NCBI RefSeq assembly: GCF_003346815.1
Contig: NZ_CP031217.1
Span: forward strand, 620,001 to 684,000
Reading direction: 5' to 3'
DNA length: 64,000 bases
Origin: Halarcobacter bivalviorum
GTDB taxonomy: Bacteria > Campylobacterota > Campylobacteria > Campylobacterales > Arcobacteraceae
Shown piece after piece: positions 33,793-36,548 of this stretch. The translations under genes and the position numbers were made by a program. Each line of letters begins with the position of its first letter. Position 1 is the first letter of the stretch. A model generated the notes under the pieces. The model saw only the letters and a program-made list of their open reading frames with translations, did no database searches and was not told the origin of the DNA.

Positions 33793-35841
33793 TTATTCTT
33801 CAGGATGCTCTTTTTTTATAAGACCAGCTTCTTTTAAAAATGGAGAATAAACAAAATCAAGTTTTTTAATCTTGTCATATTTTGCAAAACTAAGGTATAA
33901 AACATCTTTTGCTCTTGTTACTGCTACATAAAAAAGTCTTCTCTCTTCTTCGATACTTCCACCTTTACTCATAAGTTTTCTATTTGGAAATCTTCCATCC
34001 ATAAGGTCTATAACAAATACTTCTTTAAACTCTAAACCTTTTGAAGCATGAACTGAAAGAAGATTTACTCCTTCTCCTTCACTCATCTCTCCACCACCTA
34101 AAATCATAGAGTTTACAAATTTAGAAAGGTCTTGAAAATTTCTTGCAAGATTTCTTAAAAGCATCACTTTTCTATTTATTTTAGCAAGAGCTTTTGTTTT
34201 TTGAATTATATTTACATTTCCATCTTTTTGTGTAGCTCTTTTAGTAGCTAAAGACTCTTTTAGTCTTGAATACATCATTGATGAAGTAACTGAAGATACT
34301 AAAGAATCAGGCACTTTAGTTCTTCTAATTTGCTTCATTAGAAGATAGAAGTCATATAAATATTTTGCTCCATCAACAGAAAGTTTTGGATGCTTTAAAA
34401 TAGGATTTGATAAAAAGGCTTCTTCAAAACCACAATCTTTAAATTTTGAAACACTTCCAAGTTCTATAAAATCATCAAAAAGACCTAGCTGAATATTTTT
34501 TACACGATTTGATTGATAAGGATTATTTATGCTTGAATCAGGAGTAAATAGACCTTTAAATACATCTCCATGACCTAATTTTACTAAGGCATCAAAAATA
34601 TCTTTTGCAATAGCTTTTCCAATACCTTTTCCATGTTCTAAAACATGAATAAAAGCCATCATATCATTGTGAGAGAGTTGCATTACTAAGATATCAAGTA
34701 CAAATTTAATCTCAACAGAATCAAAAAATGACATTCCACCTTTTCTTTTTGCTGGAATTCCATATTCTCTTAAGTTTGCTTCAATTCCATCTGCACTAGA
34801 GTTATTCCTAAAAATAATAGCTATATCACTATGTGAAGTTGAACTTTGAGAAATCTTTTCTGCAATATGATGATATTGAGCAAAAAGTTCAGTAAATTCC
34901 AATAATTTTGGAGGAATTGAAACATCAGTTCTCATTACTTGAAGTTGTTTTTCATAGATTCTTTCATTATGTTCTATAACTTTTGTGGCAAGGTCTAAAA
35001 TAGGTTTACTAGAACGATAATTCTTTCTTAACGTATATACTTTTGAACCTGGATATCTTGTAGAAAAAGTTGAAATAATTCCAATATCTGAACCATTAAA
35101 AGCATAAATACTCTGATCATAATCTCCTACACAAAATAGAGATTTTGGTCTAAAAGAATCAAGTAATCTTCCTTGTAAAGGGTTTGTATCTTGATATTCA
35201 TCCACTAAGATTTCTTTAAAATCAAACTCTTCTTCTTTTAAAGTATCAAGCATAATAGTAAGTAAGTCATCAAAATTTGCATAACCATATTTACTTTTTA
35301 GCTCATTAAACTCTAAAACAACATCTTCATAAATAGCTGTATATAATTCATGGTCTGGATTTTTATTTTTAATCCAGTCTTCAAAACTTTCACCTTCATT
35401 AGAGTTTAGATATAGTGAATACATATCATACAAATATCCACCATCATAAGGATTTACTCCATCTTCTCTTTCATAAAATACTCTTTTTTCATATAAAGAT
35501 TTAAAAAGAGTTTTTAATTCATTTGGTTGTTTAAGTGTAATATTTTTATTTAATTGTTTTAATAATTTATATGAAACTGAGTGAAAAGTTCCTGCCATAA
35601 TTTTTGCTGCCATATCTTTTCCAAAAAATTTAGCAACTCTTTGTACCATCTCTGCAGCAGCTTTATTTGTAAAAGTTAATAATAAAATTTCATCTGGTTG
35701 TACACCATTATTGATTAAGTTTGCAATTCTTCCAACAATAGTTGAGGTTTTACCTGTTCCTGCACTAGCAATAATAAGATTAAAGCCTTTTTCACAGGTT
35801 GCAGCTTCGAGTTGTTCTTTATTTAAATTAGATAGGGGCAT
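33793..35841 (-). CDS. UvrD/Rep-type ATP-dependent DNA helicase
   Basis: The product is 682 aa, a superfamily 1A helicase. Walker A is ASAGTGKT at 25-32, motif II is VDEYQDTNP near 218, and motif III is GDYDQSIYAFNGSD. The late motifs are LSVHASKGLEFKEVFVIDL and YVAVTRAKDVLYL. Such helicases unwind DNA 3' to 5' in repair and restart. It is of the usual length and complete, and could be Rep, PcrA or UvrD. A structured RNA gene appears to lie just upstream of it. Confidence 0.93.
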   Translation of the reverse strand: MPLSNLNKEQLEAATCEKGFNLIIASAGTGKTSTIVGRIANLINNGVQPDEILLLTFTNKAAAEMVQRVAKFFGKDMAAKIMAGTFHSVSYKLLKQLNKNITLKQPNELKTLFKSLYEKRVFYEREDGVNPYDGGYLYDMYSLYLNSNEGESFEDWIKNKNPDHELYTAIYEDVVLEFNELKSKYGYANFDDLLTIMLDTLKEEEFDFKEILVDEYQDTNPLQGRLLDSFRPKSLFCVGDYDQSIYAFNGSDIGIISTFSTRYPGSKVYTLRKNYRSSKPILDLATKVIEHNERIYEKQLQVMRTDVSIPPKLLEFTELFAQYHHIAEKISQSSTSHSDIAIIFRNNSSADGIEANLREYGIPAKRKGGMSFFDSVEIKFVLDILVMQLSHNDMMAFIHVLEHGKGIGKAIAKDIFDALVKLGHGDVFKGLFTPDSSINNPYQSNRVKNIQLGLFDDFIELGSVSKFKDCGFEEAFLSNPILKHPKLSVDGAKYLYDFYLLMKQIRRTKVPDSLVSSVTSSMMYSRLKESLATKRATQKDGNVNIIQKTKALAKINRKVMLLRNLARNFQDLSKFVNSMILGGGEMSEGEGVNLLSVHASKGLEFKEVFVIDLMDGRFPNRKLMSKGGSIEEERRLFYVAVTRAKDVLYLSFAKYDKIKKLDFVYSPFLKEAGLIKKEHPEE

Positions 35842-35910
35842 TTAGTTTATATTCTTTAGTAGTATTTTCATTGGGCGAATATTAGCATAATGATACTTAT
35901 TTTTTGAGCA

Positions 35911-35943
35911 AAAAAAAAGCTCCCAAGGAGAAGGAGCTTTTTT
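35911..35943 (-). terminator. Strong intrinsic terminator upstream of the helicase gene
   Basis: On the minus strand GCTCC-TTCTCCTTG-GGAGC forms the core of an 11-bp stem (arms at 35933-35943 and 35913-35923), followed by eight Ts at 35918-35911. It lies about 70 bases upstream of the helicase start and so must end a transcript that begins before the helicase gene. It could also act on the plus strand with a six-T run. Confidence 0.8.
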
Positions 35944-36025
35944 ACACACAAGGAAATAAGTTTTGGAAAACTTTAAAAAAATTCGCAATTTTAAAGTAAG
36001 AAGTTTCGCAATCTTCTTAATCCAT
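35911..36025 (-). ncRNA. Candidate small regulatory RNA with pyrimidine-rich terminator loop
   Basis: Read on the minus strand, a -10-like TATAAT (complement of 36032-36037) precedes about 115 bases that fold into successive hairpins. First comes TAAGAAG/CTTCTTA (35997-36003 with 36013-36019), then CTTTAAAA/TTTTAAAG (35971-35978 with 35989-35996). Last is a terminator with stem AAAAAAGCTCC/GGAGCTTTTTT and eight Ts. The first two loops both show TTGCGAA. The terminator loop is TTCTCCTTG. A pyrimidine-rich terminator loop is the target-binding part of the Helicobacter RNA RepG, so this could be a functional analogue. No protein is encoded. Confidence 0.45.
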
Positions 36026-36120
36026 AAGAAAATTATAATAGATGAGTATTAACTAAAGTAAAATAAAAAGTTAACAAAGAGTTAATGTGAGAGTTTTTTT
36101 ATTAATTTATTGAGTTTTTT

Positions 36121-36149
36121 AGAGTAAAGCTAGCTGCTTTACTCTTTTT
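36121..36149 (+). terminator. Hairpin 3' of the superoxide reductase gene, T-run on the plus strand
   Basis: AGAGTAAAGC (36121-36130) pairs perfectly with GCTTTACTCT (36136-36145) around TAGCT, followed by TTTT. It starts 16 bases past the end of the minus-strand reductase gene. In that direction it is followed by As rather than Us, so it is a typical terminator only for plus-strand transcription, where no gene is evident. Confidence 0.5.
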
Positions 36150-36161
36150 GCTTTGTAAAGA

Positions 36162-36548
36162 TTACTCAGCTACAGACACTTCAACAGGAGTTGATTCCCA
36201 AATACCGTGTTTAGTACAGTATCCGTGAGCAACTAGATTTAATTTTTTAGAAGTTGGAATAATAGTAAAAGTTGTAGTGTTGTGTGCTTTTACATTTCCT
36301 AAAGTTCCAGGAACATAAGTAGCTTTAGCTAATAAAGTCTCTCCATTAAATAATGAAACAGATTCAATATAGTGATCAAAATCATCTGGATGAGTATATT
36401 CATTTCCCATTTTAACAGTTACTTCAAAAGGCTCACCTTTTGTAGCAGTTTCATTACAGTGGATAAATGGCGAGTGTCTATCAATTAAATCTTTTTTTGC
36501 TTCTCTTTCTACAGTATCTATATCAACATATTTGTTAATTTTTGGCAT
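36162..36548 (-). CDS. Superoxide reductase (neelaredoxin type)
   Basis: The product is 128 aa with the single-iron desulfoferrodoxin fold and no N-terminal rubredoxin-like iron site. The iron ligands can be placed: H25 (DRHSP), H53 and H59 (THPDDFDHYI), C111 and H114 (GYCTKHGIWES). Superoxide reductases reduce superoxide to peroxide without making oxygen. The usual EKHVP loop is DRHSP here, so the glutamate and lysine near the iron are replaced by aspartate and arginine. Good AAGGAGA ribosome site. Confidence 0.88.
   Translation of the reverse strand: MPKINKYVDIDTVEREAKKDLIDRHSPFIHCNETATKGEPFEVTVKMGNEYTHPDDFDHYIESVSLFNGETLLAKATYVPGTLGNVKAHNTTTFTIIPTSKKLNLVAHGYCTKHGIWESTPVEVSVAE

Follow-up and report, generated by a model that had tools for sequence, protein, structure and literature searches.

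MicA/RybB-type small RNAs (sRNAs), which act under sigma-E, serve the envelope-stress response by repressing ompA-like mRNA at its ribosome-binding site, alongside induction of degP. Several described systems share parts of this arrangement. In Enterobacteria, the tandem sibling sRNAs OmrA and OmrB stand under an OmpR-type two-component system and target outer-membrane and TonB-receptor mRNAs (PMC4211561, in excerpt). The ChvR sRNA of Caulobacter crescentus is also two-component-controlled, acts independently of Hfq and represses a TonB-dependent receptor through two pairing sites (PMC6237742, in excerpt). Within Campylobacterota, the RepG sRNA of Helicobacter pylori pairs through its C/U-rich terminator loop with a G-repeat in tlpB (PMC8295292, in excerpt), and the CprRS system of Campylobacter jejuni influences htrA and other envelope genes (PMC4518328, in excerpt). 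Here we describe a locus, and a family of related loci, that is best read against these systems.

Within a window of 64,000 nt from Halarcobacter bivalviorum (contig NZ_CP031217.1), the stretch 35910..36025 on the minus strand most likely encodes a small regulatory RNA, judging from its sequence, with a predicted transcript of ~116 nt that we designate class A. Its start, A36025, was placed from the position of the -10 box (TATAAT, 36032..36037, minus), itself recognised in an alignment of copies. Hairpin 1 (35997..36019, minus), located by folding and stem fitting, reads TAAGAAG(ATTGCGAAA)CTTCTTA and presents GCGAA in its loop (36009..36005). Hairpin 2 (35970..35997, minus), which has its outermost base in common with hairpin 1, reads ACTTTAAAA(TTGCGAATTT)TTTTAAAGT and presents the same motif (35986..35982). 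It is followed by a predicted seed, UUUCCUUGUGUG (35945..35956, minus), which could pair with ribosome-binding sites, and by a rho-independent terminator (35910..35943, minus), whose stem and loop differ between copies and whose loop in this copy is TTCTCCTTG. The two hairpins, -10-like box and terminator described in the initial annotation are therefore all present, on the minus strand at ~36025..35910. Some details of that description needed correction: nine Ts, rather than eight, come after the terminator stem; the loop motif, given there as a common TTGCGAA, does recur, but the core kept in relatives is GCGAA; and the terminator loop of this copy is not conserved.

The minus-strand fold of 35911-36025 has a z-score of -2.87, and none of 200 dinucleotide shuffles folds as well. 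Owing to the hairpins, the plus strand of the same interval also folds well (z = -2.70, 2/200 shuffles), and direction was therefore assigned from the promoter, conservation and the longer of the two U tracts (nine Ts versus six). A simple terminator scan did not list the sRNA terminator at 35910..35943, and a promoter scan returned a count no higher than that of shuffled sequence (5 versus a mean of 4.0). The support for both terminator and promoter therefore comes from the fold and from the alignment of 27 copies. A search with Rfam 15 gave no family at gathering score within the window.

A DNA search of 60 relatives found matches with E ≤ 3.4e-14 in all 16 genomes of the genus, which is probably Halarcobacter, several of them with extra copies. 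Among the 44 genomes outside the genus, only one (G027) fell below 1e-4, at two adjacent places; the others gave weak matches. An iterated profile, run over the loci retrieved from these genomes and over the window, collected 27 copies at E < 1e-10, of which two are in G027 and 25 in the genus; as the genomes are related, these copy counts, like the target counts below, are not independent. The G027 locus (L048, G027:C1:601779-602112) carries tandem class A-like copies from another genus, with the exact seed and a first loop of GCGGA or ACGGA.

In the alignment of the 27 copies, the operator described below, the TATAAT box, the GCGAA loops and the seed are conspicuous, and the terminator loop is not. 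The 10-mer UUUCCUUGUG of the seed is present in 27/27 copies and the 12-mer in 24. In this set, gathered by DNA similarity, 23/27 copies keep GCGAA at hairpin 1 and 26/27 at the place of hairpin 2; the motif is missing at one of these places or both in L045, L046 and the two G027 copies, one of which lacks it at both. The copies hold no conserved reading frame, as many alignment indels have lengths not divisible by three. Because indels misalign the hairpins, RNAalifold applied to the MAFFT alignment recovered only the terminator; hairpins were instead fitted round each GCGAA and compared with shuffled controls. A stand-alone structured sRNA gene, which the initial annotation had put forward as an independent unit, is strongly supported. 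The expectation stated there, of stems varying round a constant loop, was largely borne out by the GCGAA counts given above and by the stem pairing among siblings given below.

The seed is on average 64% unpaired over class A and 81% in this copy, compared with 39% for the whole RNAs. In the 2.68 Mb genome, three sites carry its complement, ACACAAGGAAA: one is the sRNA gene itself, and the other two are ribosome-binding sites, of mlaA and of a TonB receptor gene. Across the 16 genomes there are 71 hits, compared with 27 for the reversed sequence, and 25 of the 71 are the sRNA genes themselves. We inspected 45 of the 46 non-sRNA sites (leaving out G002:C1:1147590), and 18 lie 4-7 nt before an ATG: seven at prs, five at TonB receptor genes, four at mlaA and two at ompA-like genes. 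The target families were checked on examples, which gave MlaA (PF04333), OmpA (PF00691), PRPP synthetase and, in four of five receptor genes, the TonB plug domain. The shorter ACAAGGAAA before ATG showed no enrichment (227 versus 316 reversed, 16 genomes), and the targets are separated only by the longer ACACAAGGAAA and by full duplexes.

Orthologous leaders were gathered by protein and scored against each species' own seed. At a threshold of -14 kcal/mol, which was chosen after a first look at the data, duplexes formed with 15/16 ompA-like, 13/16 prs and 10/15 mlaA leaders (one mlaA gene start was not found), compared with 1/175 background leaders, which were scored with the seed of this genome. 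Five sets of orthologous control leaders (uvrD, degP, its regulator, its kinase and the class B neighbour) gave 0/71. After exclusion of genomes that already show a ACACAAGGAAA site, the counts are 13/14 for ompA, 6/9 for prs and 6/11 for mlaA, and the ompA-like count under another start rule is 14/16. In the mlaA set, five of the 15 leaders are weaker than -14 kcal/mol, two reaching only -5.6 and -7.4 kcal/mol, and for two of the ten positives (G014 and G013) 5 and 2 of 200 shuffled seeds are equally good. The prs gene, which adjoins the ompA-like gene, is not an envelope gene, a point against the envelope-stress reading. What emerges, in the form of complementarity, is a conserved unpaired seed that matches the ribosome-binding sites of unlinked genes.

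Upstream of the -10 box lies an operator (36048..36085, minus) of four TTAA(C/T)-like half-sites spaced by 11 bp, ending 10 nt before the box. The half-sites stand at about -48, -37, -26 and -15 relative to the -10 box, and their columns are in register in 24/27 promoters, three rows being shifted by the choice of anchor. An 11-bp half-site period is typical of OmpR/PhoB-type regulators. The pattern of operator plus -10 box is matched with at most two mismatches in 27/27 copies and with at most one in 26/27. A slightly stricter pattern has three exact places in this genome and matches the 36048..36085 site with one mismatch. At up to three mismatches, operator plus -10 box gave 14 hits in this genome versus 7 for the reversed pattern, all three exact hits being forward; the operator sought without the -10 box showed no enrichment there (50 versus 65 reversed). 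Over the whole genus, a search at up to two mismatches gave 89 hits versus 6 for the reversed pattern.

Genes other than sRNAs also carry the operator. Among them are an LTXXQ (Spy-like) gene with its own regulator and kinase, its Pfam match being just under the cut-off, and degP/htrA, for which the order box-degP-response regulator-kinase is found in 15/16 genus genomes, all 15 loci having been read; G009 showed no such box. In these operons, degP encodes a protease of the Do family, and its partners are a regulator with receiver and OmpR-type DNA-binding domains and a kinase whose ArsS-family match exceeds the cut-off. The 11-bp repeat operator of the sRNA genes resembles that of these degP-regulator-kinase operons, and by this resemblance control of the sRNA family would fall to an OmpR-type envelope-stress regulator, most likely that of the degP/htrA operon. 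Whereas the sRNA boxes are TTAAC, those of degP are mostly TTTAC-like, and this genome has two further response-regulator genes that adjoin similar boxes; for these two reasons we infer the identity of the regulator rather than read it from the boxes. Boxes were also seen before a TonB receptor gene and an EF-hand gene flanking an ExbB-ExbD-TonB cluster (L342 and L351, the genes of the latter identified by eye), and operator-like boxes with two mismatches stand before lipid A phosphoethanolamine transferase genes (L093, G000:C1:2671321, and L347, G010:C3).

The operator search of this genome led to a second sRNA, class B (C1:1769548, L059). It shares the class A promoter, carries GCGAA twice, once in a hairpin, and has a terminator and an anti-Shine-Dalgarno segment of its own (AUCUCCUUU). 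In 9/16 genus genomes, class B DNA is recognisable at one shared locus, upstream of the same gene; the search tally of 11 includes two extra matches, in G009 (another sibling class) and G014 (a different terminator). The pattern of promoter plus two GCGAA motifs occurs in 16/16 genus genomes (39 places) and in 3/88 other genomes of the family, and its reversed form gave two matches in all 104 genomes. Of the three matches outside the genus, G060 and G077 have the full architecture and G103 is an apparent chance match. The pattern also placed B-like siblings in G007, G008 and G014, and manual sorting gave at least three further classes (in G009; in G014, G002 and G011; and in G002). The sibling classes thereby appear to number at least five, sharing promoter and GCGAA motifs and differing in seed.

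Among 43 distinct siblings, a stem of at least 6 pairs is formed in 39 at hairpin 1 and in 31 at hairpin 2, compared with 12% and 8% of mononucleotide shuffles; this set was gathered by a pattern that requires two GCGAA motifs, and its loop is constant by construction. The stems themselves diverge (UGAGUAA, UUAAGAAG, AUUAGGAAG, CUUAAGAAUG). The motif is not universal: GTGAA takes its place, or it is absent, in the sRNA-like sequences that begin at the operator hits L343, L346 and L348. The sequence at L343 (G001:C21:3139) has a GTGAA first loop and follows an operator and -10 box that match exactly, and at L346 (G010:C1) and L348 (G012:C93) the class B locus keeps operator and -10 box with no GCGAA in the first hairpin. 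A match in Obscuribacterales (L056) looks like chance and was set aside. Among 148 leaders of this genome, none stood out as a target of the class B seed (UCUCC); its best matches were two leaders of genes that are cytochrome-like by eye (L085, G000:C1:1401930), at -15.2 and -13.2 kcal/mol.

Because the GCGAA loops recur in siblings with different seeds, the comparison argues for a shared role of these loops. The motif is on average 85% unpaired across class A, and only 56% and 66% unpaired at its two places in this copy. A search for Hfq (PF17209) found it in 0/16 genus genomes, with 5/14 control genomes positive. The complement of the loop, UUCGC, is found in 16/447 leaders, compared with at most 9 for each of 29 other arrangements of the same letters, in a sample that is biased because many of the 447 leaders were fetched for their seed match. 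Nine of the 16 are uvrD leaders from related genomes, in which the motif overlaps the promoter, and the remainder comprise four mlaA leaders, two TonB receptor leaders and one ribosomal protein gene assigned by eye. UUCGC stands shortly upstream of the seed site in the four mlaA leaders and further upstream in the two TonB receptor leaders; in mlaA of G011 and G002 (UUCGCACACACAAAACACACAAGG) the loop complement is beside the seed site. As a loop partner, UUCGC beside the mlaA seed site is suggestive, not decisive. A conserved TTCGCC was further observed at the uvrD promoter (~35872-35884, minus; uvrD leaders L029-L033, L042, L052 and L055), probably located before the transcription start.

One reading of these loops is that the GCGAA hairpin forms a handle common to a whole Hfq-less sRNA regulon, either as the site of a protein that substitutes for Hfq or as a kissing loop to UUCGC in target leaders. 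We hold this tentatively, as somewhat likelier to be wrong than right. Two points weigh on that estimate and, slightly, on the main proposal below: part of the loop constancy among the 43 siblings follows from how they were gathered, and the leaders examined for UUCGC are a biased sample.

Taken together, the conserved gene, promoter and operator, the structure and the complementarity can be read directly in the DNA. With good though not full confidence, we propose that class A is a trans-acting sRNA that is induced by an OmpR-type envelope-stress regulator and lowers outer-membrane protein synthesis without Hfq; its transcription, the stress signal and repression are what we infer from these features. 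An OmpR-type regulator, most likely the degP/htrA-linked one, would bind the TTAA(C/T) repeats and, under envelope stress, activate transcription of the sRNA. In the folded RNA, the seed would stay free beside the terminator and the two hairpins with their GCGAA loops. Through UUUCCUUGUGUG it would pair with the mRNAs of an OmpA-family protein, MlaA, TonB receptors and PRPP synthetase, covering their ribosome-binding sites. Such pairing would block translation and reduce the outer-membrane protein load, and the sibling classes, with the same promoter and loops, would bring other anti-Shine-Dalgarno seeds to bear.

A different use of the same RNA would be as a sponge, in the manner of CsrB, which is a sponge RNA for CsrA: the GCGAA loops would sequester an RNA-binding protein and the seed would be secondary. 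The recurrence of the loops in sibling classes with differing seeds and their accessibility across class A fit such a role, but each RNA offers two motifs only and its best conserved part is the seed, which matches leaders; we regard a sponge as unlikely.

The setting of the gene raises another alternative, a cis-acting leader or attenuator of the downstream uvrD/pcrA-like helicase gene (33793..35841, minus), which directly follows a class A copy in 16/16 genus genomes. The upstream neighbour is less constant: here it is a desulfoferrodoxin-family gene (36162..36548, minus), found in the same place in 1/15 relatives' loci and hence in two genomes, and elsewhere it is another gene, often chemotaxis-receptor-like. 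A plus-strand terminator-like hairpin (36121-36145) was noted between the desulfoferrodoxin gene and the sRNA promoter, although both of these read on the minus strand. Despite the fixed position beside uvrD, the extra class A copies L043, L044, L046 and L047 adjoin other genes, between the sRNA and uvrD lie a full terminator and, by eye, a promoter-like stretch, and the class A seed reaches -14 kcal/mol with 0/16 uvrD leaders, which leaves a leader function very improbable.

We give equally little credence to RepG-like action through the terminator loop, the regulator suggested in the initial annotation. The loops here (UUCUCCUUG) and in sibling B (UUCUCCUU) speak for it, but that loop is not the same across the 27 copies, all of which keep UUUCCUUGUG outside the terminator, and the 20 nt after the seed, comprising the terminator 5' stem and loop, reach -14 kcal/mol with 0/32 ompA and prs leaders. 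Least probable of all is a mobile or repetitive DNA element spreading between genes: copies are tandem and dispersed, up to four of class A in one genome (G008), but the position is fixed in 16 genomes, operator, -10 box and seed are conserved, stems change yet stay paired, and target genes hold matching sites. On these grounds the leader, RepG and repeat-element readings were rejected.

By comparison of genomes this is a real sRNA family of marine relatives of Campylobacter, absent from Rfam 15 in the window. The sRNAs of Campylobacterota are not known to depend on Hfq, for which the search here covered this genus, and the family bears on the question of how such sRNAs find their targets; what makes it most valuable is a GCGAA hairpin that recurs in a genus where no Hfq was found. 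The family offers many natural variants of one scaffold, with recurring loops, changing seeds, a candidate regulator and a short target list, so that the role of the loop, the regulator and the targets can be tested directly. If the proposal is true, it would add an envelope-stress sRNA arm acting on outer-membrane proteins beyond those studied in more depth in enteric bacteria and Alphaproteobacteria. For Arcobacter sp. L, intergenic regions have been analysed and most left unnamed (PMC6429828, in excerpt). Among the matches listed in a search of open-licence PMC literature, no paper treats a GCGAA sRNA family, and overlap with those unnamed regions is possible.

By its features, the family should work like the envelope-stress sRNAs, and no known sequence family tested includes it. 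The degP-regulator-kinase layout, likened by operon layout and family hits, recalls the htrA-cprR-cprS order of C. jejuni; the excerpted text of PMC4518328 names no sRNA of the CprRS regulon. As in RepG, class A has a C/U-rich segment, but its terminator loop is not conserved as the comparison with the excerpted RepG description would have it. Compared with MicA/RybB-type sRNAs, the switch here resembles an activator box of OmpR type rather than a sigma factor, and no Hfq was found in the 16 genomes. ChvR, compared by its excerpted description, is a single sRNA with one reported target, whereas the Halarcobacter family is multi-copy with several predicted targets. The likeness to OmrA/OmrB, as described in the excerpted source, consists in tandem sibling sRNAs and in outer-membrane and TonB-receptor targets (here predicted); the 11-bp repeat operator may point to OmpR-type control as well. 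Class A differs from that pair in having no Rfam match in the window, constant GCGAA hairpins and an Hfq gene in 0/16 genomes, and it bears its seed between hairpin 2 and the terminator, with predicted targets that include ompA, mlaA and prs.
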